Shown: piece by piece, positions 1,714-21,861 of the stretch
Layout of the letters: every line of letters starts with the position of its first letter
Position numbering within the stretch: the first letter of the stretch is position 1
DNA from: a bacterium
Lineage (GTDB): Bacteria > Omnitrophota > Gorgyraeia > Zapsychrales > Zapsychraceae
DNA length: 64,000 nt
Direction: 5' to 3'
NCBI GenBank assembly: GCA_030429765.1
Contig: JAUIER010000008.1
Span: 1-64,000 of the forward strand
The notes under the pieces: model-generated
Told to the model about the DNA's origin: nothing
The model's database searches: none
The model's input: only the letters and a program-made list of their open reading frames with translations
Position numbers and translations under genes: made by a program

Positions 1714-1838
1714 GTGTGGAATCTCAGAAATCAATGGCAGGAGTCTAGTATATCAGCAGATGATCCGCCAGAATCTTCGCAGAACTGTAGCCAGTTGCTA
1801 CGTAGCTCCCTACCAATAATTAAAGGAGCGAAGTAGAA

Positions 1839-1927
1839 CGGAGAGGGAGGGATTCGAACCCTCGAGCCGTCTCACAACGACCACACGCTTTCCAAGCGTG
1901 CGCCTTCAACCACTCGGCCACCTCTCC
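1839..1927 (-). tRNA. tRNA-Ser (anticodon GGA)
   Basis: Read on the minus strand, the 5' acceptor GGAGAGG pairs with 3' CCTCTCC, followed by discriminator G (usual for serine tRNAs). The anticodon loop in 'GCTTGGAAAGC' gives GGA, reading UCC/UCU. A long variable arm and the T-arm 'GGTTCGAATCC' complete a class II tRNA of 89 nt. No CCA is encoded. Confidence 0.95.
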
Positions 1928-2339
1928 AAAATTTTTGAGTCCAGATAAACTTGCTCAGACTCAAAAATTTAATAGTGTTTCGAAATGCTTCAATTCGAAA
2001 CACGTAATAAGTCAGGCTTTAAAAAGATCGAAAATATCAAGTTTGTTTCGAAATGCTTCAATCCGAAACAAACACACAAAGTACTAATAGTCTGAGAAAA
2101 AGAGCTCAAAAATTTAACAGTGTTTCGAAATGCCTCAATTCGAAACACATCCATCCAAATTCATCGGAAATTTTCGTTTCAAGGACCGAATAAATGGCCT
2201 GAGCTGCGGTGTTTTCTTAGCTGAAGCCCGTTTCCGCCCGGATTCTGACAATTTCGGCGTCAAATTCCGGTGAATGTTCAAGAGAATATCATAATCAAAT
2301 GGCCATTGCAACGGAATTCTCCCGGTGTTCAGATAGGGC
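1928..2339. repeat. Non-coding stretch with one 13-bp and three related 10-bp hairpins
   Basis: Upstream of tRNA-Ser(GGA). AAATTTTTGAGTC (1929-1941) pairs perfectly with GACTCAAAAATTT (1958-1970). Three copies of a second hairpin follow: GTGTTTCGAA/TTCGAAACAC with a 9-nt loop at 1975-2003, a variant GTTTGTTTCG/CGAAACAAAC at 2041-2073, and GTGTTTCGAA/TTCGAAACAC again at 2120-2148. Copies 1 and 3 are also preceded by the same AAAATTTAAyAG block. Arms are perfect while loops vary (TGCTTC, TGCCTC). No gene is seen. Confidence 0.75.
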
Positions 2340-2405: not shown

Positions 2406-2936
2406 ATGGACATTGAAAAAGCCTGGAATCAGGCCCTCAAAGGGACCGAAATCATCCGCTCGCGGGTCGCGGCGCTCGAGACCGCCGGATCCACCCGTGT
2501 GCCGTATGTCCTGCTGGCCGAGTCGAGCATCAATGTCGGGGACACCATCGTCCGCCGGGGCGAGGTTGTGGTCGATAAACCTTCAATCATTTTGCCCCCC
2601 AACAACCCGCAATTCAATGGATTTGAGCTGGACGACGATCAATCGTTCGATGAGACATCGATGGTCAACTTCCTGCTGGTCCGGGGGATTTCACTGCCTT
2701 CACTGAATTACAACAACCGAACGTCTTCGTTGGATATCTTCGAGGGCGGTCTGTCCGACGCCATTAAACATTATACCCAGGACTTGCAGCGCAAAGAGGA
2801 TGTCCACACCGGTTTGATCAAGGGACTGGAAGATGCCTGGCCGTTGTCGGTACTGATCTTTGTCTGTTCTCAAGTAACCCGCAATGTCGACATCGATATC
2901 CGTCGGCTGATGCAGCAATACAAAAACGACTCGTAG
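2406..2936 (+). CDS. Hypothetical protein, first gene of the M16/ATPase/DUF58 operon
   Basis: 176 residues, not recognised. It has no signal peptide or membrane segment and is rich in acidic and polar residues. A central stretch 'YVLLAESSINVGDTIVRRGEVVVDKPSIILPP' looks like a small beta domain, followed by an alpha-helical C-terminal half. The final segment 'LIKGLEDAWPLSVLIFVCSQVTRNVDIDIRRLM' may be an oligomerisation helix. It ends 16 bases before the M16 peptidase, so it is probably co-transcribed and functionally tied to that operon. The initiation site is weak (AGGGA about 12 bases upstream). Confidence 0.6.
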   Translation: MDIEKAWNQALKGTEIIRSRVAALETAGSTRVPYVLLAESSINVGDTIVRRGEVVVDKPSIILPPNNPQFNGFELDDDQSFDETSMVNFLLVRGISLPSLNYNNRTSSLDIFEGGLSDAIKHYTQDLQRKEDVHTGLIKGLEDAWPLSVLIFVCSQVTRNVDIDIRRLMQQYKNDS

Positions 2937-2952
2937 TCAAAAACCAAGGAAC

Positions 2953-5553
2953 ATGATGCGAAAATATTTGATTTGGATTTCAATCCTGGCCGTGATGCTC
3001 ACGGCGGCCCCAAAGGGATACACGTATGAACCCGTCGTCTACAAGGAAGTACTGGAATCGAATGGACTTCCGGTGCTGGTGCAGGAGATGCCCGGCAATC
3101 CGATGGTCTCGGTCTATATGCTGGTCAAGACCGGTTCGGCCACCGAAGGCAAGTATCTGGGCGTAGGTTTGTCCCATTTTTTGGAACACATGCTTTTTAA
3201 GGGCACGGAACGCCGCGGGGTCGGCGAGATATCCGCGGAGATCCAGGCCGTGGGAGGAAATCTCAATGCCTCGACGGGCTGGGACTTTACGATCTACACG
3301 ATCAATGTTCCCTATGATGAATTTGACGTGGGACTCGATGTGCTGGCCGACATGATCATGAACTCCACCCTGGACCCGGTCGAAGTTGATAAGGAACGTG
3401 AGGTCGTGTACAACGAGATGCGGCTGCACCGTGATAATCCGTCACGCTATCTGAACGAGATCGCGATCGCCACCATGTATAAAACCCATCCGTATCAGCA
3501 TCCGGTCATCGGATACAAGGATTTGCTCGAGCAGGTCACGCGCGATGAGATGATGGACTATTATAAGTCCAAGTACATCCCCAATAACATGGTCTTTGTG
3601 GCCGCGGGTAACATCAAGACCGAAGAGGTGATGCCCAAGATCCGCGAGGCATTCAAGGATTTCAAGCGGCGTCCGTATCTCAAACGGACCCTGCCGCAGG
3701 AGCCCGATCAAATCCTGCCGCGCCGCACCGACGAGAAATTTGAAACCAATCTGACGCATTTAATGGTACTTTATCCGTCCGTGAGTCTGCTGGACCGTGA
3801 TCTGTATGCGCTGGACGTGCTGGCACAGATCCTGGGCCAGGGTAAGAGCTCCCGCCTGTACACGGATCTGTACAAAAAACAGCAGATTGTCGACAGCATC
3901 GGCGCGGGCAATTACACACCGGTCGACATGGGCGCGTTTGAGGTCTGGGCCAACCTGTCGGACGAAAGCAATCTCGACAAGGTGCTCGAGGAGATCGACA
4001 AGCATATCCAGCGGGTCAAGGAGAATGGCGTGACAGCCGACGAGCTCAAGAAGGCCAAGAAACAGGTCCTGAGTTCGTACATCTTCGGTAATCAAACCAC
4101 GCAGCGTGTGGCCTGGAAGCTGGCGTACGACGAGGCGTTTACCGGCGATTATAATTTCTCGGTGAAATACACGGAAGCCGTCAATCAAGTCACGAATGAA
4201 GATATCAAACGCCTGGCACGCAAATATCTCACCGATCAGACGCGTAATGTCGTCGTGCTGCATCCCAAGGACAGCACCTTTGACGCTCAGACGGCCGGTC
4301 AGGATTTTGCCGGACAGGCGATTCAGAAGCAGCAGCTTGCGAATGGCATGACATTGCTGACGCGCGAAGACCCGATGTTTGAATTGGTGTCGATCCGACT
4401 CAACCTGCGCGGCGGTATTTATGAAGAAACCCCTGACAATAACGGATTGTCCGCGCTTACTGCATCGACGTGGATCAAGGGGTCAGAATCGATGGATGCC
4501 GAAGAGATCGCGCGCTTTACCGATTCGCGCGGGATGTCTTTGAGCCACAGCTCGGGCAAGAACAGTTTCGGGATCGCGCTTGATTGTCTAAGCGAAGACT
4601 GGAAGGTCTGTCTGGACTTGCTGAGCGACTTTGTCCGCACTCCCACCTTTCCGCAAGCGGAGATCGATCTGATCAAACAGCAGCATGTGGTCGCCCTCAA
4701 GCAACGCGAAAAATCAATCTTCCAACTCGCGTTTTACAACCTCAAAAAGACATTATATCCGGGGCATCCGTTGGGACTGGATCCGTTGGGGACGGAAGAG
4801 TCTCTGGCGGCTGTGGACCGCGCCGATATCGTCGACTTTTACCGACGTCTGGTTGTCCCGGGCAACATGATCCTGTCGGTCTTTGGGGACATCGACACCG
4901 ACGAGGTCAGAAACTATGTGAATGACAGTCTCGGACAACTGGAGGCGGCTGATGTCGCCATCGCGTCGGCGCCTGACCGTCCTTTGGATGAGGCGCAATT
5001 GGTGGACCTGCCGCTTGAGAAGACGCAGGCGATGGTCTTGTTCGGATTTCCGGCGGTTGATTTCAAACATCCGGATTACTATAAATTGCGGGTCATGTCG
5101 GAAATCCTGGGCTCACCGTTCAGCGGCCGGCTCTTTACCAAGATCCGCGATCAGGAAGGCAAGGCGTATACCATGGGCGGAAATGTCGCGCCCAGCGTGG
5201 ATGCCGGCTATGTATATTTCTACGTGCTGACCGATCCGCAACATGTGGAAACCGTCGACGGATTGATCCGTGCGGAGATTGAACGCATCAAGACCGAGCC
5301 GGTGGGAGACACCGAGATGAACAATATCAAACGGTACATCAAGGGATCCCACAAGTCCGGGCTGCAGACCAACTCGCAGTTGGGTACACAGAGTAATCTC
5401 AATGAGCTGTACGGGCTCGGGTATGATTATCACGAACAGCATGCCGAGCAAATCGATGCAATTACCGTCGAGGATGTACAGAATGTCGCTAACAAGTATC
5501 TGGACCTGGACAAGTTTGTCACTGTCTATGTCCGGCCAACCGTGAAGGAGTAA
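2953..5553 (+). CDS. Secreted M16-family zinc peptidase (double-domain)
   Basis: 866 residues with an N-terminal signal peptide (to about residue 24) and two fused M16 (pitrilysin-type) modules. The N-terminal half has the inverted zinc motif H75-F-L-E78-H79 and the third ligand in 'EREVVYNE' (E155, 76 residues after H79, the expected spacing), so it should be catalytic. The C-terminal half (from about residue 455) has 'LSALTASTW' at the corresponding place and is a non-catalytic clamp, as in two-domain periplasmic M16 proteases. It degrades or processes peptides in the periplasm. RBS AAGGA; the next gene's ATG starts one base after the stop, indicating translational coupling. Confidence 0.93.
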   Translation: MMRKYLIWISILAVMLTAAPKGYTYEPVVYKEVLESNGLPVLVQEMPGNPMVSVYMLVKTGSATEGKYLGVGLSHFLEHMLFKGTERRGVGEISAEIQAVGGNLNASTGWDFTIYTINVPYDEFDVGLDVLADMIMNSTLDPVEVDKEREVVYNEMRLHRDNPSRYLNEIAIATMYKTHPYQHPVIGYKDLLEQVTRDEMMDYYKSKYIPNNMVFVAAGNIKTEEVMPKIREAFKDFKRRPYLKRTLPQEPDQILPRRTDEKFETNLTHLMVLYPSVSLLDRDLYALDVLAQILGQGKSSRLYTDLYKKQQIVDSIGAGNYTPVDMGAFEVWANLSDESNLDKVLEEIDKHIQRVKENGVTADELKKAKKQVLSSYIFGNQTTQRVAWKLAYDEAFTGDYNFSVKYTEAVNQVTNEDIKRLARKYLTDQTRNVVVLHPKDSTFDAQTAGQDFAGQAIQKQQLANGMTLLTREDPMFELVSIRLNLRGGIYEETPDNNGLSALTASTWIKGSESMDAEEIARFTDSRGMSLSHSSGKNSFGIALDCLSEDWKVCLDLLSDFVRTPTFPQAEIDLIKQQHVVALKQREKSIFQLAFYNLKKTLYPGHPLGLDPLGTEESLAAVDRADIVDFYRRLVVPGNMILSVFGDIDTDEVRNYVNDSLGQLEAADVAIASAPDRPLDEAQLVDLPLEKTQAMVLFGFPAVDFKHPDYYKLRVMSEILGSPFSGRLFTKIRDQEGKAYTMGGNVAPSVDAGYVYFYVLTDPQHVETVDGLIRAEIERIKTEPVGDTEMNNIKRYIKGSHKSGLQTNSQLGTQSNLNELYGLGYDYHEQHAEQIDAITVEDVQNVANKYLDLDKFVTVYVRPTVKE

Positions 5554-5554
5554 T

Positions 5555-6925
5555 ATGTCGCTAGCCGAACACAGAGAGAGACGTTTGGATCTGGAATTCA
5601 GATTGGTGGATATGCTGCGCGGTCAGTTGAACTTACTGCAGCCTCAGGAGGAGAAGGAAGTCCTCGTCGAGAAACAGCTGGACAAAATCTTCAAGAACAA
5701 GGAATTTCCTGAGCTCGCCGAGATCCTGGAAGACCAGAACGAACGCATCGCGTTTATCAAAGAGTTTCTGTCTTACGGCATTCTCACCGACCTGCTATGC
5801 GACGGTTATGTTGAGGATTTGTGTATCAACAATTTGAAGCCGGTTTACATTCACCACGGTCAAAAGGGTTTTGTCTGCACCGACAAGCAATTTGAGACGC
5901 AGCGTGACATGGATCTGTTTATCCAGAAATTGCTGCTGTTTTGCGGCAAGCAGCGTCTGACCAAGATCGTGAACCTTGAGCTTCCCAATCTCGAAGGACG
6001 TGTCAACATCGCCTTGTCACCGTTCGGTCCGCAGCTGACCATCACCAAGGCCAAGGTGACACCGTTGAGTATTCTTGATTTGATCCATCAAGGCAGTATG
6101 ACCCATGAGGTGGCGGCTCAGTTGTGGCTGTATCTCGAGGGGATGTCGATCCGACCGGCGAATATGATGATCTCCGGCGGGCCGGGGGTTGGAAAGACGA
6201 CACTTCTTAACGCGCTGTTTAGTTTTATCCCCAACAGTGACCGCATGGTCGTCATCGAAGACACGCTTGAGCTGAATACCTTTATGGAAGACAGCGCGTC
6301 GCGTCTGGAAAGTGACGACGAACTCTCGCTGGCTGATCTGGTCAAGAACAGTCTGCGGATGCGTCCCGAACGGATTATCGTCGGTGAGGTCCGGGGGCAG
6401 GAAGCCGCCGATATGATCACGGCCTGTAACATAGGGAAGTATTGTATCGGGACCATTCACGCGCTGACATCGCGTGAAGCGATCATCCGTCTGCAGAACG
6501 AACCGATGAACATTCCGGAGATGCTTGTTAACCTGATCGATGTGTTCATTGTTCTCAAACGCTATCACGTCAAGGACCGTCTGTTCCGTGTGGTGGACGA
6601 GGTCAGTGAGACCAGCGGGATGGAACAGGTCAAGATTCTTTTGTCGACCGTTTATAAATACGATTACGACACGCACAAGCTCAATCAAATGAACCCGAGT
6701 ACAGTCTTCCGCGACCGGCTGGCGCAACAATCCGGTCTGACGCCGAAGGACATCATGAAAGAGCATTTGTTGAGGACGTTCTTACTGAAACATCTCGACG
6801 AGAATAATATGACGACGATGAAAGAGATCTCGACATTCTGCCGGGCGTACTCAGCCGACCCGAACGGAACGGTGGCGGATTTGGGATACAATCGAAACGA
6901 ACTTCTCAAGAGCGCCGAGCGGTAA
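5555..6925 (+). CDS. CpaF/TadA-type secretion ATPase
   Basis: 456 residues. The Walker A motif GGPGVGKTTL lies around residue 209 and the CpaF-type Walker B 'RPERIIVGEVRGQEAADMI' around 271-290. The following 'IGTIHALTSREAIIRLQ' is the histidine box of type II/IV secretion ATPases. The N-terminal 'GILTDLLCDGYVEDLCINN' is the usual ATPase N-domain. Such hexameric ATPases power pilus assembly or protein secretion from the inner face of the membrane. No TadB/TadC platform, pilin or secretin lies nearby, so its partner is unclear; the large membrane protein downstream is the obvious candidate. The C-terminal ~90 residues extend beyond the core. GGAG before the upstream stop couples translation. 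Confidence 0.88.
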   Translation: MSLAEHRERRLDLEFRLVDMLRGQLNLLQPQEEKEVLVEKQLDKIFKNKEFPELAEILEDQNERIAFIKEFLSYGILTDLLCDGYVEDLCINNLKPVYIHHGQKGFVCTDKQFETQRDMDLFIQKLLLFCGKQRLTKIVNLELPNLEGRVNIALSPFGPQLTITKAKVTPLSILDLIHQGSMTHEVAAQLWLYLEGMSIRPANMMISGGPGVGKTTLLNALFSFIPNSDRMVVIEDTLELNTFMEDSASRLESDDELSLADLVKNSLRMRPERIIVGEVRGQEAADMITACNIGKYCIGTIHALTSREAIIRLQNEPMNIPEMLVNLIDVFIVLKRYHVKDRLFRVVDEVSETSGMEQVKILLSTVYKYDYDTHKLNQMNPSTVFRDRLAQQSGLTPKDIMKEHLLRTFLLKHLDENNMTTMKEISTFCRAYSADPNGTVADLGYNRNELLKSAER

Positions 6926-6960
6926 TCAAACATTTCAATCAATCCGAAAGCTGGAAGCCT

Positions 6961-9900
6961 ATGACTCAACAGACGGCCATTCGACATCGTGTTTTCAGCG
7001 CGCCATCCATCAAAAAAATCCAGCGTCTGCAGACAGTGTATATCAATCAGCTGGTCATTCCTAAGTGGTCGATCCGTCCGGCCATCCGACGTTATAAAAA
7101 AATCAACAAGGCCTACCGCCGGCTGAATGGATACCTTGCCCGGCTAGAACGGGTGTATACCGGTTCGGACGGCTATATTCAGGAAGTCATCAAGACCTAT
7201 CGGCAGGACCTGACGGGCATTCATGATCAGCATATGCGCTGGTATTTTCAGGTGCTGGACATCTTGCTCAACACGCCCGTCGGAGAAGACTACTGCCGGC
7301 AATGGCGCTACCGTCACATCGTCAACGCCATCCGACGCGGGGCCAATGAGGCGCGTGAGCGGATTCAGACACCGATCCTCAAACATCAATTGCGGACCCG
7401 TCTGCGCGATGCCTACGCGCGCGCCCGCTACGAATTGCGGTACAAATTTGAGACCGTGTTACTGGCGGAATCGGCGGTGGTGATGTCCCAAAAAGAATCT
7501 GACACGCGTGTTCCGCAGGATCCGCGCTGGTATGAACGGTTGCGGGAGTTTATCCGTGACCATATCTACGGATACAATCAGCCGGACCGTCAGTTTTATC
7601 CAGTCACGCAGATGGCGCTGGACCGCGGGCTTGAACCGGAGATCCGGCGATTTGAAAAAGCGCGCCGACAGCGGTTTCGAATGACGGGGTTGGCGCTGGT
7701 CTGCAGCGGTGTGATCCTGACGATTGTCCTGAATCTGACGGGGTGGGACCGCATCGTCGCGCGTAACGCCTGGATGCTGTGGCGTGACATCAAAAGTGTG
7801 ATGACCATCTTTCCGGCGCCCGGCGAGAAGAACAGCTATTTCGAACAGGAGCTGCTGGATCTCAATGTGGACGTCTCGCGTGAGACATTGCGCGCCAATC
7901 TGACGGCCTTTATTGACCAGAAATACTACGAACGGGACAATCGTTATCTGATCTTCGGTGAAATGCTGCTGCGCGATTACATGATCCTGCTGGCCCGTGA
8001 CGAGCTCGACGCGGAATTCAAACGGGACATGTATCGGGCGGGCTTTCTGCTCGACGCTGATTTGGTGGACATGCTGGACCGCCTGACGGTGCAGTATGAT
8101 CGTCCGGTCATTCGCGAATCTGAACTGCGCGATGTGATCTTTGATATGCGCCGGCTGTTTGTCCGAAATGATGTGTATCCGTTTATGTTTCTGGTGCTGC
8201 ATGAGCAGACACCCTATGTATTTGTTTACACGGAGCGGATCACCGGATCGATGCCGTTGCGGCGGGAGGATGTCGCCTCCTTGGGGATTGACCCGTTCTG
8301 GTTTGATGAAGTGCAGGGCAATCGTCTGAAGGCGCACATGATGACCGGTGAGAACTATCCGTTTCACGGCAAGGCGGGATTTTTCGAAGGGGAGTTTGCC
8401 GTGGTCTTCACATCGCTGTCGACCCGGCCCGAGTGGACAGGCTGGCATGAGCTGGCCCACGTCGTCGACTATATGGAATTCACCTACGCCAACATTATTC
8501 CTTTGGACAATGTCGAGGTGACGGCGGTGCTGTTTCCGATGATCTTTGCGGATGATCCGGCCGATTACATGGCCGTTCATGTGTTTCCCAAGATACGTTC
8601 GCGCGATCGCAAGGACTACTACGTGCAGGCGGCCAAGGGGATCCTCAATGGAGCGATCATCTATTTCAATGCGACGTACAATGAAAACCGGCCGTTGATA
8701 ACCAATCGATTTGAGGAAGAACGCATTGCGTGGATTGAACAGCGCCTGGCCTTGCTGTCGGACAGTCAGCTTAGCGCGTTGGGGCGGATCATGTATCAGG
8801 ATCCGTACACGTTTCTGGCGACCGCGGAGAAGGCGCGCTATCGTTCCGTCGAGACCAATGCCGAAGAGATTATTTACGGGACGCATGGGTCGCCGCAGAA
8901 AGAGGTGATTGAGCTGGCCTCGCTGGGCAGTATCTTCGGGTCCAACCAAGGGCCGCGTTTTGTGCGCGACGGGCAGGACGGCGGCGATGATTCTGACGCG
9001 ATCAAACGGGCGGCCCTGATCCGCGCGATTCTGGTATTCGTGTTGTTTGAATTGTTGGCGGTGGCCACACATTTGCTGGCAACGCCCATCCGTCGTCGGA
9101 AGATGCAGGGGATTTTACCCGGACGCATCGTCGATCGGATGTTCGCTTCAGATTGGGCCAAGTCGCATCACAAGGCCGATCATTCGGCCAGCGCGATCCA
9201 GATGCTCAAGTCACTGTTTGATTCTTCATCGAACAAAGGCGAGACCTTCCGCCGCAAGATCGATATGTTTCGGCTCAACGCCAATCACAAAGAACGATTG
9301 TTGTTTCACGCCGGACTGTCTTTAGCGCCGACGATCCCGCAGTCCGCGGTGATCAAGAATGAATTTCAGTTGCTGCTGTTTTATCTGCCGTTTATCGGTC
9401 CGTATCTGGCCCGTCAGCGCTGGATTTTTCCTCGGCAGCGCGCGTTTTATCTGCGGGAGAAATTCAACGCGCGGATCCGCCGCCTGATCATGCGATCACC
9501 GGCCGATATCCCGACATCGCAATTAATTACCGAGTTGAATGCGATCATGGAGGAGTTTGAACAGACCGACGAGCAGGCCGTTCACACGGCGGCGCGTCAC
9601 GCGGTTGATTTTCGGGCCATTGAACAATGGGTGTTGGCCTATCTGGAGCGCGTGTTTGGTCATGTCAAACTCAATTACGACGGGCGGTGGATGGACCTGA
9701 GCAGTTTGAGCAAGGCGATGGACCGCGGGTCAGAGTTTGATCGACTCGATAAATACGAACCAGGCGATGATATCCGGATGATTGACTGGAATGTCACGGC
9801 CCGTTCGACCACACAGACGGCGATGGTCCGCAAACGGATTATGGATAGCGATGTGCAGGTGGCATTCCTGTTTGATCTGACCACGCTGAACACCACCATC

Positions 9901-10329
9901 AATCAGAAGAAATGGGCCGCGGATTTGGCCAAAAGTATTCGTGCCGTCGGACATAACAATCATTTGAAGTCGGTGATATATCTGTATCCCGATGGGACAT
10001 CGGTGGTCAAGCCGGTCAAGATCCATTCCAAGGTCCACTACAAGCAGCTGGCCATCAAGATGGTCCACATGGTGGAGCAGCAATGGCTGCGTTCCAGTGA
10101 GCATCTGCAGACGCATCGGTTCCGGGGTCTGAAATTCTACAGTCTGGAGGAAAACCAGCGCTACCGTCAGCAGCTCAATTGGCTGAGCTTTGATGAAACC
10201 GATCAGCATCCGGTGCTCAAACACCTGAAGATCCAGAATCACACGATCTTTATGATCGGCACCAAACCCCAGAAAAAGCGTCAGATCTCCCGCATGCTCA
10301 GCGCGCGGAACAAGGCGATTTTCTGGTAA
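6961..10329 (+). CDS. Large membrane protein: zincin-like HELAH domain plus C-terminal DUF58
   Basis: 1122 residues in a unique-looking arrangement. Residues 1-235 are basic and helical (cytoplasmic). A transmembrane helix follows at about 241-262 (MTGLALVCSGVILTIVLNLT), then a large loop, a second helix at about 685-710, and a cytoplasmic tail. The loop contains H496-E-L-A-H500 in 'GWHELAHVVDYMEF', a zinc metallopeptidase-type HExxH. The tail ends in a DUF58 (von Willebrand A-like) domain, recognised by 'YEPGDDIRMIDWNVTARS' at about 932-949 and 'VQVAFLFDLT'. DUF58 proteins normally pair with MoxR ATPases; here the neighbour is a secretion ATPase instead. Starts 35 bases after it. Activity is inferred. 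Confidence 0.75.
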   Translation: MTQQTAIRHRVFSAPSIKKIQRLQTVYINQLVIPKWSIRPAIRRYKKINKAYRRLNGYLARLERVYTGSDGYIQEVIKTYRQDLTGIHDQHMRWYFQVLDILLNTPVGEDYCRQWRYRHIVNAIRRGANEARERIQTPILKHQLRTRLRDAYARARYELRYKFETVLLAESAVVMSQKESDTRVPQDPRWYERLREFIRDHIYGYNQPDRQFYPVTQMALDRGLEPEIRRFEKARRQRFRMTGLALVCSGVILTIVLNLTGWDRIVARNAWMLWRDIKSVMTIFPAPGEKNSYFEQELLDLNVDVSRETLRANLTAFIDQKYYERDNRYLIFGEMLLRDYMILLARDELDAEFKRDMYRAGFLLDADLVDMLDRLTVQYDRPVIRESELRDVIFDMRRLFVRNDVYPFMFLVLHEQTPYVFVYTERITGSMPLRREDVASLGIDPFWFDEVQGNRLKAHMMTGENYPFHGKAGFFEGEFAVVFTSLSTRPEWTGWHELAHVVDYMEFTYANIIPLDNVEVTAVLFPMIFADDPADYMAVHVFPKIRSRDRKDYYVQAAKGILNGAIIYFNATYNENRPLITNRFEEERIAWIEQRLALLSDSQLSALGRIMYQDPYTFLATAEKARYRSVETNAEEIIYGTHGSPQKEVIELASLGSIFGSNQGPRFVRDGQDGGDDSDAIKRAALIRAILVFVLFELLAVATHLLATPIRRRKMQGILPGRIVDRMFASDWAKSHHKADHSASAIQMLKSLFDSSSNKGETFRRKIDMFRLNANHKERLLFHAGLSLAPTIPQSAVIKNEFQLLLFYLPFIGPYLARQRWIFPRQRAFYLREKFNARIRRLIMRSPADIPTSQLITELNAIMEEFEQTDEQAVHTAARHAVDFRAIEQWVLAYLERVFGHVKLNYDGRWMDLSSLSKAMDRGSEFDRLDKYEPGDDIRMIDWNVTARSTTQTAMVRKRIMDSDVQVAFLFDLTTLNTTINQKKWAADLAKSIRAVGHNNHLKSVIYLYPDGTSVVKPVKIHSKVHYKQLAIKMVHMVEQQWLRSSEHLQTHRFRGLKFYSLEENQRYRQQLNWLSFDETDQHPVLKHLKIQNHTIFMIGTKPQKKRQISRMLSARNKAIFW

Positions 10330-10399: not shown

Positions 10400-10467
10400 A
10401 CAGCCCTGTAACAGGCCGCTGGGCGATCCGTCGATCTTGATCGTCCGGTCTGACAAACTCATTTTAT

Positions 10468-10541
10468 GCGCCCGTAGCTCAATTGGATAGAGCACCTGTC
10501 TACGGAACAGGAGGTTGCTGGTTCGACCCCCGCCGGGCGCG
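10468..10541 (+). tRNA. tRNA-Arg (anticodon ACG)
   Basis: 74 nt. GCGCCCG pairs with CGGGCGC, the D-stem is GCTC/GAGC, and the anticodon stem CCTGT/ACAGG holds loop CTACGGA (anticodon ACG). The T-arm carries GGTTCGACCCC. A34 in this tRNA is the classic substrate of TadA, which is encoded about 1.2 kb downstream. Confidence 0.95.
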
Positions 10542-10549
10542 TTTTTATT

Positions 10550-11719
10550 ATGACCTCATCACTTAAATCGTCCCCTCAAGTCAAAACTCCCCCATTAAAT
10601 GTTAACGGTAATCCTGAAGGTCTTTTTCAACAGCTGATTGAACAGGCGGCGGACAGTGTGTTTACACTGGATCTCAACGGGCGGGTTTTGTACGCCAACA
10701 AGGCCGCGCGCGAGTTGACCGGCCGGCCGGGCAAAAAGATCATCGGAAAATATTTTATGCTGTTTCTTGATAAGCCGTCACGGGTCAAGGCGCTCAAGTA
10801 TATCCGCGAGGTGCGAAAGGGTGTGGAGGTGATCCGCGATGAATTGCATATCGTCAATGACAGCCGTAAGGTGATTCCCATTGAATTTACGATGACACCG
10901 ATCCATCGGAAGAACGCGGTGGCGCAGCTGCATGTCAGCGTCAGAAATATTTCCCGGCGACGAGAGCTTGAGGATATCGCGCGTGAGTCGGCCAAGATGA
11001 GCGCGATTCAGCATTTTATTTCCGGGACCACCCACGAAATTCAGTATCCGTTGAAAGGATTGATGGAGCAGACCGAGCGGTTGATCAAGACCTACCGGGA
11101 TCGGGATTTTGAGTACATCGGTTACAAGGAATTTTCACAGATCTTCGAGACGCTGGAGACGATGCGCGACCAGGCGGAATACTGCTACAAGACCACGGAG
11201 CGGCTCTTGAAGATCAGTCAGGAAAAGGCGGGGTTGAATAAAAAGACCTGCGACGCCAACCGGGTGATCCGTGAATCGATCCTGACACTCAAGGACAATA
11301 TTATGAAGGCGGATGTCACGATTCAAACACGCCTGGCCAAGACGCTGCCGCCGGCGGCGATCGGCGAGATCGAGTTGGGACAGGTGATGACCAAGATCAT
11401 CACCAATGCCGTTCAGGCCTTGACGCTGGTCGGGCGTATCGAGATCCGCAGTTCTTATTCCAAACGGGATCACAAGATCCGTATCGACTGTGTTGATAAT
11501 GGGATCGGGATTTCCAAGGATGATCTGTCGCGGGTGTTTGATCCGTTTTTCACAACCAAGGAGCGGGGCCTTGAAAAAAGTTCCGGCCTGGGTCTGGCCA
11601 TTGTGTATTCCATCATCAAGTCCTACCACGGGACCATTGCCATCAAGAGTAATTCGACTGACGGCACACGTGTCACGCTGATGCTGCCGGTCGCTAAAAT
11701 TTCCAAGAAACAAAAATGA
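10550..11719 (+). CDS. PAS-domain sensor histidine kinase
   Basis: 389 residues and no membrane segment, so it is cytoplasmic. An N-terminal PAS domain (about 25-145; 'DSVFTLDLNGRVLYANKAARELTG') is followed by a dimerisation/phosphoacceptor helix with H162 in 'THEIQYPLKGL'. The HATPase_c domain shows N-box 'KIITNAVQAL', G1 'DNGIGISKDDL', 'FDPFFTTKE' and G2 'GLGLAIVYSI'. It should autophosphorylate on histidine in response to a small ligand or redox cue; no adjacent response regulator is seen. The start lies only 8 bases after the tRNA-Arg 3' end and has no ribosome binding site. It overlaps tadA by 4 bases (ATGA). Confidence 0.85.
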   Translation: MTSSLKSSPQVKTPPLNVNGNPEGLFQQLIEQAADSVFTLDLNGRVLYANKAARELTGRPGKKIIGKYFMLFLDKPSRVKALKYIREVRKGVEVIRDELHIVNDSRKVIPIEFTMTPIHRKNAVAQLHVSVRNISRRRELEDIARESAKMSAIQHFISGTTHEIQYPLKGLMEQTERLIKTYRDRDFEYIGYKEFSQIFETLETMRDQAEYCYKTTERLLKISQEKAGLNKKTCDANRVIRESILTLKDNIMKADVTIQTRLAKTLPPAAIGEIELGQVMTKIITNAVQALTLVGRIEIRSSYSKRDHKIRIDCVDNGIGISKDDLSRVFDPFFTTKERGLEKSSGLGLAIVYSIIKSYHGTIAIKSNSTDGTRVTLMLPVAKISKKQK

Positions 11720-12192
11720 ACGACGACATATTGAATCTGGATCAGATTTATATGGCGCAAGCCTATCGGCAGGCACAGCTGGCCGCCGATCAGGATGAAG
11801 TGCCGGTGGGCGCGGTGATTGTGCATGATCAGCAGATTGTCGCCAAGGCGCACAATCAGGTCGAGATGCTTAAGGACCCCACCGCTCACGCGGAGATGAT
11901 CGCGGTCACGCAGGCGGTCAGTACGCTCGGCCAAAAATGGCTGAATGACTGCACAATGTACGTTACGCTCGAGCCGTGCTCGATGTGCGCCGGGGCGCTG
12001 GTGTTAGCGAGGATCAAACGATTGGTTTTCGCCACGGAAGATCCGAAGAGCGGGGCGTGCGGATCGGTGATCAACATCGCGCATCACAATGATCTCAATC
12101 ACCGGATCGAAGTCCAGCATGGATTGATGCAGGCCGAATGTTCGGCGATTCTGTCGGAATTCTTCAAAAAGAAACGTCATCTCAACAATTAA
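11716..12192 (+). CDS. tadA: tRNA-specific adenosine deaminase TadA
   Basis: 158 residues, normal length for TadA. The zinc-binding cytidine-deaminase motif is complete: 'HAEMIAV' (H and catalytic E) and 'EPCSMCAGALV' (two cysteine ligands). 'VPVGAVIVHD' and 'FATEDPKSGACGSV' are further TadA signatures. It converts A34 to inosine in tRNA-Arg(ACG), letting it read CGU, CGC and CGA. The ATG overlaps the kinase stop, so the tRNA, the kinase and this enzyme may share a transcript. Confidence 0.93.
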   Translation: MNDDILNLDQIYMAQAYRQAQLAADQDEVPVGAVIVHDQQIVAKAHNQVEMLKDPTAHAEMIAVTQAVSTLGQKWLNDCTMYVTLEPCSMCAGALVLARIKRLVFATEDPKSGACGSVINIAHHNDLNHRIEVQHGLMQAECSAILSEFFKKKRHLNN

Positions 12193-12652: not shown

Positions 12653-14302
12653 ATGGATAAACTGATTCGCAAATATAGAAGTTACCTGGCGCATCCATGC
12701 GACGCGGTCGGACTCGGCCTATTCCGGGCGGTGTTCGGAATAATCCTGCTGATGCATGTGCTGGTCTACCGATCTCCTGCAATCCTGCAAGAGTTTTATC
12801 TGTCCACGGATTTTTATTTCAGTTTTCCACTCTTTCATTGGCTGCATCTGCCGCAGCCCACACCGGAACTGCTGGTGTGGTTGACCCGCGTCATGATTGT
12901 TAGCTCGATCATGCTCGCGCTGGGTGTATTGTATCGGTTCGCGGCGGGCGCTTATTTTGTCGCGTTTGGATATCTGTTCCTGCTCGAGAAGACTTATTTT
13001 AACAATCATTACTACCTGATCCTGCTGTTTCTATTTTTGCTGATCATCACCGGCGCGGACCGTTTCGCGGCGCTGGGGCCCAAGCTGTTGGGCAAGGCCA
13101 AGGAACGGGTGGTTCCGTACTGGCACTTTTTTATCTTTCAGATATTGATCAGCCTGATGTTTTTCTTTTCCGGCGTGGCCAAGCTGCATCCGGACTGGAT
13201 CAGCGGCAAGGTCACGCAGATCATCTTTGCCGGGGCGGACGAATGGTTTATCATCTTTACAGCGCTGATGGGATTGATCATCGATCTGTCACTCGGATTC
13301 ATGCTGATGCGGCGCGATAAACGCAAGTCCGGCATCTTTGTGATGCTATGTTTCGCAGTGTTTGTGAAGTACATGCTCAACATCGGCGTGTTTCCGTACA
13401 TTCTCATCGCCTGCAGTTTGTTGTTTATCGATCCGGATTACATCCGGCGGATCCTGAATGTGTATCGGCGCAGAGACCGGAAACTGAAATTTGACGAAGA
13501 GGAAATCAATGCGTCCCGTCAGGTGTCAATGCCGGTCTTTGTCTTTGTGATTGTGTTTATCTTGATCCAGGTCGTGGTGCCGCTAAGGCACTGGATCTAT
13601 CCGGGGGCCGTGAACTGGAACCGTTTTGGTGATAAATTCGCCTGGCGGATGTTCGCTCAGGAAAATATCGGACACATTGATTTCTTCGTGACGGACGTCC
13701 TGACCGGGGAGACCATTGAGGTCCCGCGCTTGTTGGGGATCAATGTCGCGACATACATGGACATGGCGCAGATCCCGGATATGATCATCCCGTACGCCGG
13801 ATATCTCAATCAGCATTATGCCAAGCAGGGGATGTACAATCCGATTGTGACGGTCAACGCATTGGTCTCCAAGAACGGACGAAATTTCGCGATGCTGATT
13901 GATCCGGTCAAGAACCTGGCCCATGAGTCGGTGCAGAAGGGCAAAGTTTCTGCTGTATTGCTCGACGGCAATGACCCGGCCAATATCACGGCCATCAACG
14001 GTAAGGACGCGGGTAGTTTTTACTCAGCGGCCTATCAGCTGGCGGTGATTGAGCACGAAGGCCTGATCCCGGGTGATCATCCGGATGTCGCCAGGATTCA
14101 GAATCTCATGGATGATTTTTCGACGTCACGGATGGTTAGTCCCTATCAGATTTCCAACCTTGTTGTAGATATCAAAAATGAACTCTACTCGGTGCATGGA
14201 CGGCCGTTTACCGCCATTGAGGTGCTGGAAAAGCTGGGTCAGCAATTCCCGAACGTGGAGTCTCTGCCGTCCTTCGATGAGGCCATCGAACCCTTTCTTT
14301 AA
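12653..14302 (+). CDS. HTTM-domain membrane protein (vitamin K-dependent gamma-carboxylase-like)
   Basis: 549 residues. The N-terminal ~270 residues are a horizontally arranged multi-helix HTTM domain, seen in 'GLGLFRAVFGIILLMHVL', 'LLVWLTRVMIVSSIMLALGVLYR', 'YYLILLFLFLLIITGADR', and 'FFFSGVAKLHPDWISG', which matches the conserved family block around the active lysine. A further helix near 290-310 is followed by a soluble ~240-residue tail without recognised domain. Bacterial HTTM proteins resemble gamma-glutamyl carboxylase, but most lack a known substrate. Follows the SNase-like gene closely, so probably in one operon. Confidence 0.8.
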   Translation: MDKLIRKYRSYLAHPCDAVGLGLFRAVFGIILLMHVLVYRSPAILQEFYLSTDFYFSFPLFHWLHLPQPTPELLVWLTRVMIVSSIMLALGVLYRFAAGAYFVAFGYLFLLEKTYFNNHYYLILLFLFLLIITGADRFAALGPKLLGKAKERVVPYWHFFIFQILISLMFFFSGVAKLHPDWISGKVTQIIFAGADEWFIIFTALMGLIIDLSLGFMLMRRDKRKSGIFVMLCFAVFVKYMLNIGVFPYILIACSLLFIDPDYIRRILNVYRRRDRKLKFDEEEINASRQVSMPVFVFVIVFILIQVVVPLRHWIYPGAVNWNRFGDKFAWRMFAQENIGHIDFFVTDVLTGETIEVPRLLGINVATYMDMAQIPDMIIPYAGYLNQHYAKQGMYNPIVTVNALVSKNGRNFAMLIDPVKNLAHESVQKGKVSAVLLDGNDPANITAINGKDAGSFYSAAYQLAVIEHEGLIPGDHPDVARIQNLMDDFSTSRMVSPYQISNLVVDIKNELYSVHGRPFTAIEVLEKLGQQFPNVESLPSFDEAIEPFL

Positions 14303-21090: not shown

Positions 21091-21215
21091 TCCGTCGACG
21101 AACCCTATCCAGGCCGCCGTTGGAATGGCCCGGAAGTCCTGGAATATCTGCTTTACAGCCCATATAAAGTCTGGTATAAATGACTTTCCTGTGGTAACAT
21201 ATGGACTTCATTTTT

Positions 21216-21304
21216 GGAGAGGTGCCAGAGTGGCCGAATGGAGCTCACTGCTAATGAGTTGACCTGCGCGAGCGGGTCCCAGGGTTCGAATCCCTGCCTC
21301 TCCG
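21216..21304 (+). tRNA. tRNA-Ser (anticodon GCT)
   Basis: 89 nt class II tRNA: GGAGAGG/CCTCTCC acceptor, discriminator G, anticodon stem GCTCA/TGAGT around loop CTGCTAA (anticodon GCT), long variable arm, and T-arm GGGTTCGAATCCC. An abrupt change to AT-rich sequence starts right after it and an integrase fragment lies 560 bases on. It is therefore the likely integration site of the downstream element. I see no second copy of its 3' end in the window. Confidence 0.95.
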
Positions 21305-21861
21305 TTCTCTTAAGAAGTTATATCCCAAGTTTAACATTAAACCAATCATAACTTCCTATCACTCTTGTAGATGCGCCTACTACAAAAAATTGACATTAAG
21401 AAAAAGCGTTAATCTCGGCTTTCAATCCATTATTCCTTCCAACAAATTAGCAAATTTTATAGGCTATTTTTTGCTATATTTTGCTCAATTTGATGCTAAA
21501 TGATGGCACTGTTTTGGCACAATTCTTGAATTTTAGAAAATTTTCTCACTTTAGTCAGATTCCTTAATTTTTAATTTATTCTCACTTTAGTGAGATGACT
21601 TTAAATTTCGGTGTCACGAGTGACGTTTAACCAAATTTCATGAAACCCAATGGATTATTCTTAAACAAAAAATTTGATACAAATCTAGTTGCAATTTGGA
21701 TGGTATTTGTAAAAGAGCTTATGTGTTCTAATTCAGTTACAGGAGTATATGCCGTCAGTCCCGTTTTGTTTCAAGCATTGGTTCAGTTGAATTTAGTGAC
21801 TTATGTGTATATTTAAGAAGAAGTGATGATAGGCAAGCTCACATTAAATAACATTGACTAA
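21305..21861. other. AT-rich non-coding junction with a doubled palindrome
   Basis: No gene is visible. The palindrome TCTCACTTTAGTGAGA lies at 21580-21595, and a one-mismatch copy TCTCACTTTAGTCAGA at 21544-21559, 36 bases apart (start to start). Several runs of A and T surround them. The position between the tRNA and the integrase remnant fits an attachment or regulatory region of an integrated element. Confidence 0.6.

Follow-up and report, generated by a model that had tools for sequence, protein, structure and literature searches.

What does a secretion-type ATPase serve when no secretion machine lies beside it? Secretion and pilus ATPases are normally defined by their machine, and we addressed this question for a locus in an Omnitrophota genome (G000; 3.3 Mb, 34 contigs), in a window of 64,000 nucleotides that covers positions 1-64000 of contig C10. 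Four open reading frames (ORFs) on the forward strand at 2406-10329, with intergenic gaps of 16, 1 and 35 bases, encode a small soluble protein (P0001), an M16 peptidase (P0002), a T2SSE-superfamily ATPase (P0003) and a membrane protein with a zincin-like and a DUF58 domain (P0004). An earlier note on this DNA, whose gene layout and gaps agreed with ours, had read the four as one ATP-driven export or envelope-processing machine unlike any named system. Our results indicated that P0001-M16-P0003 is a module found across an Omnitrophota order, with an orphan T2SSE ATPase of the FlaI/CpaF branch as its basis, and that P0004, as judged by comparing related loci, stands between P0003 and tRNA-Arg only in the lineage of G000. 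Our leading, still tentative reading is that the region comprises two unrelated things, namely this module, serving a remote filament-like apparatus, and a P0004 of the MoxR/DUF58 kind.

The conservation of the string was analyzed in 81 genomes of one Omnitrophota order. P0001 (orthologues at 49-67% identity) and P0003 (49-85% identity, counting fragments and a second copy in G056) were each represented in 67 genomes; 65 genomes carried both and 12 neither, and both were absent from the nearly complete G003 (96%) and G048 (95%, about nine contigs). P0001 lay ahead of P0003 on one contig and the same strand in 61 of the 65, the other four being split over different contigs. In 52 of these 61 loci the two genes were 2.6-3.5 kb apart, which leaves room for an M16 gene, and such a gene was confirmed within the gap wherever the ORFs of a locus were mapped; in the other nine they were 28-137 bp apart, which leaves no space for one. 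A PAS-histidine kinase gene and a deaminase gene read as tadA often followed 3' of the module across the order. The conservation of the three-gene string in dozens of genomes exceeds chance, whereas the fourth gene is not so conserved. A neighbourhood kept elsewhere was thus found for the first three of the four genes, and P0004 had its place there in G000 alone. Phylum-wide, 168 of 384 genomes carried P0001, frequently with no P0003 and among unrelated neighbours. Outside the order, the P0003 family extended to other families of the same class, where it typically stood alone in the string archease - RtcB - serS - membrane protein - tRNA-Ser - P0003 - tRNA-Arg(ACG) - deaminase - tRNA-Ser(GCT) - dnaX - recR. 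Because P0001 and P0003 were found apart outside the order, the P0001-M16-P0003 string must have come together within the order or earlier. Literature searches on orphan CpaF or on the P0001-M16-P0003 module returned nothing specific.

P0003 was assigned to T2SSE by Pfam (104.3 bits against a cut-off of 24.9, E = 7.1e-30), and the residues of its Walker A, Asp box, Walker B and His box were invariant in an alignment of 28 orthologues with 56-85% identity. The best profile match among PDB sequences was 2oap ('Type II secretion system protein'; 203.9 bits over residues 15-439), which we take to be archaeal GspE, and further matches were to CpaF (172 bits) and FlaI (159 bits). With the CpaF/TadA ATPases of Tad (type IVc) pili, P0003 shares an N-terminal domain and T2SSE core over about 340 residues together with the Walker and His boxes; FlaI, the archaellum ATPase, and archaeal GspE gave its top profile and PDB matches, which include the C-terminal extension. 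However, P0003 failed the NCBIfam cut-offs for TadA (136.8 versus 373.15 bits), for FlaI by a wide margin (203.2 versus 550 bits) and also for VirB11. It differs from CpaF/TadA in having no TadB, TadC, pilin or secretin gene at its locus and a Thr in place of the Arg of the 'IRKF' segment, and from FlaI in being bacterial and in having no adjoining FlaJ-like gene. Near-full-length members of the P0003 group scored at least 480 bits, whereas all other T2SSE ATPases, truncated contigs apart, remained below 190, and this gap indicated that P0003 is a separate family. On these sequence comparisons, P0003 is a diverged FlaI/CpaF-clade T2SSE ATPase that forms an order-wide orphan family; an orthologue with 62% identity was observed in a 'Candidatus Omnitrophota bacterium' metagenome-assembled genome.

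The two genes ahead of P0003 were characterized to different degrees. P0002 consists of two M16 halves (Peptidase_M16 and M16_C, E = 2.8e-44 and 2.7e-73), with HxxEH at residue 75 and none in the second half, an architecture that it shares with M16 peptidases of the pitrilysin/YmxG/PqqL type; it differs from these in falling under every NCBIfam equivalog cut-off, and its N-terminus looks, by eye, like a signal peptide. P0001 contained no Pfam domain, its profile matched nothing among PDB sequences or in Pfam, and its predicted structure, with a mean pLDDT (predicted local distance difference test) score of 72, gave no usable match in a PDB fold search.

The evolutionary characteristics of P0004 were different. 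The protein begins with a helical part, followed by a zincin-like domain (about residues 297-651) with the motif HExxH-x18-E, a transmembrane (TM) segment and a C-terminal DUF58 domain (residues 931-991; 36.4 bits against a cut-off of 23.4, E = 4e-9); its hydrophobic segments lie at 238-263 and 678-711. The HExxH is at 496-500, and H496, E497, H500 and E519 were invariant across eight homologous sequences. These motifs and the Pfam matches bear out the domain calls made earlier for the M16 peptidase, the CpaF-type ATPase and the zincin/DUF58 protein. The AlphaFold model of P0004 was mostly confident over about 301-620, with no PDB match at E<=0.001; a fold search with the whole model gave nothing significant, and a scan of genome contigs with P0004 gave no match. 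Within the order, seven homologues were observed, which align at 25-30% identity and one of which is truncated at a contig end; none of them has P0001, M16 or P0003 beside it. P0004 homologues occur in about 10% of the order, versus about 80% for P0001-P0003, and P0004 was downstream of P0003 in G000 only, among the loci examined. G062, the sister species, has a P0003 with 85% identity and no P0004, and its tRNA-Arg follows P0003 after about 110 bp. Judged from this synteny, P0004 is a lineage-specific insertion, a later arrival unrelated to P0001-M16-P0003.

The reading of all four genes as one machine draws on their tight spacing, their common strand and the absence of any terminator-like site within the gaps among them. 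Given the distribution and synteny of P0004, we rejected it as highly improbable, although a single lineage-specific recruitment of P0004 could still be real; what survives of the earlier proposal is that no named system was matched. MoxR is the usual partner of DUF58 proteins, and the pairing of DUF58 with a CpaF-type ATPase had accordingly been seen as odd in the earlier note. A MoxR gene lay about 20-120 bp downstream of the P0004 homologue in three loci (L026, L055, L056; AAA_3, E = 5e-62 or better), other genes were downstream in three more (L051, L052, L053), and the downstream side of L054 is beyond the contig; MoxR therefore follows directly in three of the six homologues with a readable downstream side, and none adjoins the window copy. 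Since the relatives of P0004 stand elsewhere, some of them before MoxR, the DUF58-CpaF puzzle disappears. P0004 resembles the MoxR-DUF58 systems in its DUF58 domain and in the MoxR gene behind three homologues, but it differs from them in that DUF58 is fused to a large membrane zincin-like domain and that the window copy has no adjoining MoxR.

The giant ORFs of Omnitrophota carry few annotated domains (Seymour et al. 2023, PMC10066038). The zincin-like domain of P0004 recurs, with HExxH conserved, in such very long ORFs (L057, L211, L212+L213, L214), most of them cut by contig ends, with lengths of 6,433 aa in G244 and at least 4,123, 3,604 and 3,046 aa in G044, G096 and G169; P0004 shares the domain with them but is of ordinary length, 1,122 aa, with a DUF58 tail. 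In addition, a P0004-like TM+DUF58 half or DUF58 part was observed near the C-terminus of three other very long ORFs, L058:475-9378 (2,967 aa), L059:2-4855 (at least 1,617 aa) and L060:3332-7162 (at least 1,276 aa), the first of which is followed by a STAND-type AAA ATPase gene and not by MoxR.

We next consider which apparatus P0003 could drive. The earlier statement that no Tad platform lies beside the ATPase held, in that the window contig contains no T2SSF gene and all T2SSF matches of the genome are on C4, C18, C31 and C34. Those on C4, C31 and C34 are of PilC type, each adjoining a PilB/GspE-type ATPase gene, and C18 carries the single TadB/TadC-like pair of G000. A role for P0003 as an additional motor of a Tad (type IVc) pilus whose genes lie elsewhere in the genome, for example for retraction or alternative extension, would agree with this pair, with the placement of P0003 in the CpaF/FlaI clade and with the finding that TadC is also present in 29 of 36 P0003-bearing genomes at least 90% complete. 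However, the order has another CpaF serving Tad. Although the G000 region expected to hold the Tad ATPase is masked, a TadC orthologue in other genomes lies about 14 kb from a CpaF paralogue of 720-730 aa. Moreover, the presence of P0003 and that of TadC were uncorrelated across the 81 genomes (Fisher p 0.76), seven of the near-complete genomes having P0003 without TadC and G003 and G048 showing the reverse. The separate CpaF and the independent distributions indicated that P0003 is not simply the Tad motor, and we regard the extra-motor explanation as distinctly unlikely; the use of Tad genes in trans, which the earlier note had raised, was not upheld, and Tad as an obligate partner in trans is disfavored on the same grounds. 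An apparent 24,300-aa protein with a T2SSF domain was discarded, since it arose artificially from 72 kb masked as N on C18 (32001-104000; L071-L075). The unmasked 3' end of this stretch is an ORF tail with repeats that look LamG-like by eye, probably from a giant ORF, and the TadB/TadC pair is encoded on the other strand. A hydrophobic protein of about 200 aa (e4), whose gene precedes P0003 in other class families, was likewise rejected as a platform substitute; its gene follows serS, tRNA genes intervene before P0003, and it is probably a mere positional neighbour.

A positive hint came from four genomes (G022, G024, G025 and G036; L126, L128, L129 and L135), in which a gene for a 135-146-aa protein lies 1-8 bp upstream of P0001. 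The profile of this protein matched proteins with an N-terminal GFTLxE-like prepilin motif in minor-pilin-type clusters elsewhere (E down to 5e-24), and this minor-pilin-like gene, to judge from the profile, is the sole feature that suggests a connection to a type IV filament. Alternatively, P0003 and P0001 may act outside any filament or secretion machine, the ATPase having been co-opted for a cytosolic housekeeping role, to which its surroundings of tRNA, serS, tadA, dnaX and recR genes might point. The solitary P0003 in the archease-to-recR string of other class families is consistent with such a role, as are the replacement of the 'IRKF' Arg and a second platform-less CpaF-type ATPase gene between rseP and proS in seven genomes. 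Position nevertheless says little on function here, serS-tRNA-tadA-dnaX-recR being an old bacterial gene order; P0003 also aligns with CpaF, FlaI and archaeal GspE over most of its length, and the M16 gene in the operon and the pilin-like gene in four genomes weigh against housekeeping. We therefore consider this role doubtful, if possible. The second ATPase (about 422 aa) is encoded at L063:9504-10772 on contig C1 of G000, in an apparent string uppS-cdsA-dxr-rseP-[CpaF]-proS-nusA-infB that was kept in six other genomes (L200-L205; 57-66% identity); RseP (M50) and ProRS were named by Pfam, and the other genes by position and size.

Under the module-plus-P0004 reading that we tentatively favor, P0003 would most likely be a hexameric motor in the cytosol whose ATP hydrolysis drives a type IV filament-like apparatus, which would be of the type IVa pilus (T4aP)/pseudopilus kind rather than Tad and would draw its membrane platform from another locus. 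P0001 would be a dedicated cytosolic accessory of P0003, and the M16 peptidase may process or clear envelope substrates. P0004 would be a membrane protein gained by horizontal transfer or kept sporadically, with its zincin-like domain and DUF58 on opposite sides of the membrane, and a MoxR AAA+ ATPase acting in trans would probably remodel it. Several observations weigh against this reading. In the mapped loci, the surroundings of P0003 showed no recognisable platform, secretin or canonical pilin gene, and, because the PilC-type T2SSF genes of G000 are already paired with ATPases, no platform is visibly free. The pilin-like gene occurs in four genomes only, its product has no prepilin motif at its own N-terminus, and no copy was found in G000. 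Where genomes are incomplete, the co-occurrence of P0001 and P0003 is inflated by their physical linkage; outside the order their separate occurrence indicates that they are not obligate partners, and in other class families P0003 is often solitary between tRNA genes. In the alignments, nearly all P0003 proteins have Thr164 where GspE, CpaF and FlaI carry the Arg of their 'TIRKF/TVRKF' segment, and with this replacement the catalysis or partners of P0003 may differ. For P0004, a MoxR neighbour is present in just half of the assessable homologues. P0001-P0003 could instead be the core of an undescribed Omnitrophota machine, with a FlaI/CpaF-clade motor and P0001 as a new small partner, possibly of a new fold, working without a classical TadC/PilC platform; we regard this as rather unlikely. 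Taken together, the earlier interpretation of the locus was partly supported.

Table 1. Features of the four-gene region and its flanks in the window
Feature	Position	Strand	Description
tRNA-Ser(GGA)	1838-1928	-	upstream of P0001
P0001	2406-2936	+	176 aa, soluble; conserved Omnitrophota family; module core
P0002	2953-5553	+	866 aa, M16 peptidase
P0003	5555-6925	+	456 aa, T2SSE-superfamily ATPase of the FlaI/CpaF/archaeal GspE clade; module core
P0004	6961-10329	+	1122 aa, two TM segments, zincin-like and DUF58; outside the conserved module
tRNA-Arg(ACG)	10467-10542	+	downstream of P0004
PAS-histidine kinase	10550-11719	+	commonly downstream across the order
MafB19/dCMP-type deaminase	11716-12192	+	read as TadA (tRNA adenosine deaminase); often nearby, both in the order and in other class families

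The flanks of the module (table 1) recur as well, with tRNA-Ser genes preceding P0003 in related loci and tRNA-Arg following it in several of them. Both within the order and in other class families, tRNA-Arg(ACG) lies near the deaminase gene (window 10467-12192; L172, L177, L184 and L185), whose product, read as TadA, would probably edit the anticodon A34 of this tRNA. Farther downstream, the window encodes an HTTM/vitamin K-dependent gamma-carboxylase-like membrane protein at 12653-14302 (Pfam E = 4e-51). Right after tRNA-Ser(GCT) at 21215-21305, the GC content drops from about 0.51 to mostly 0.32-0.42 over 22000-64000, a probable island with genes for ParB, an M78 peptidase, a molybdopterin oxidoreductase/NrfD/Fe-S gene set, NnrS, a 1,324-aa immunoglobulin (Ig)-like protein and an ORF of at least 1,415 aa.

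Omnitrophota are reportedly ultra-small for the most part, and some of them predatory or host-dependent, and their apparatus for attachment and predation is a current question. Here, one ATPase subfamily has stayed 56-85% identical throughout most of an order; it has a small dedicated neighbour and no adjoining machine, and P0001 and P0003 offer two concrete targets for asking what orphan T2SSE motors do. In addition, the zincin domain that P0004 shares with the giant ORFs provides an enzymatic clue to these poorly annotated Omnitrophota proteins.

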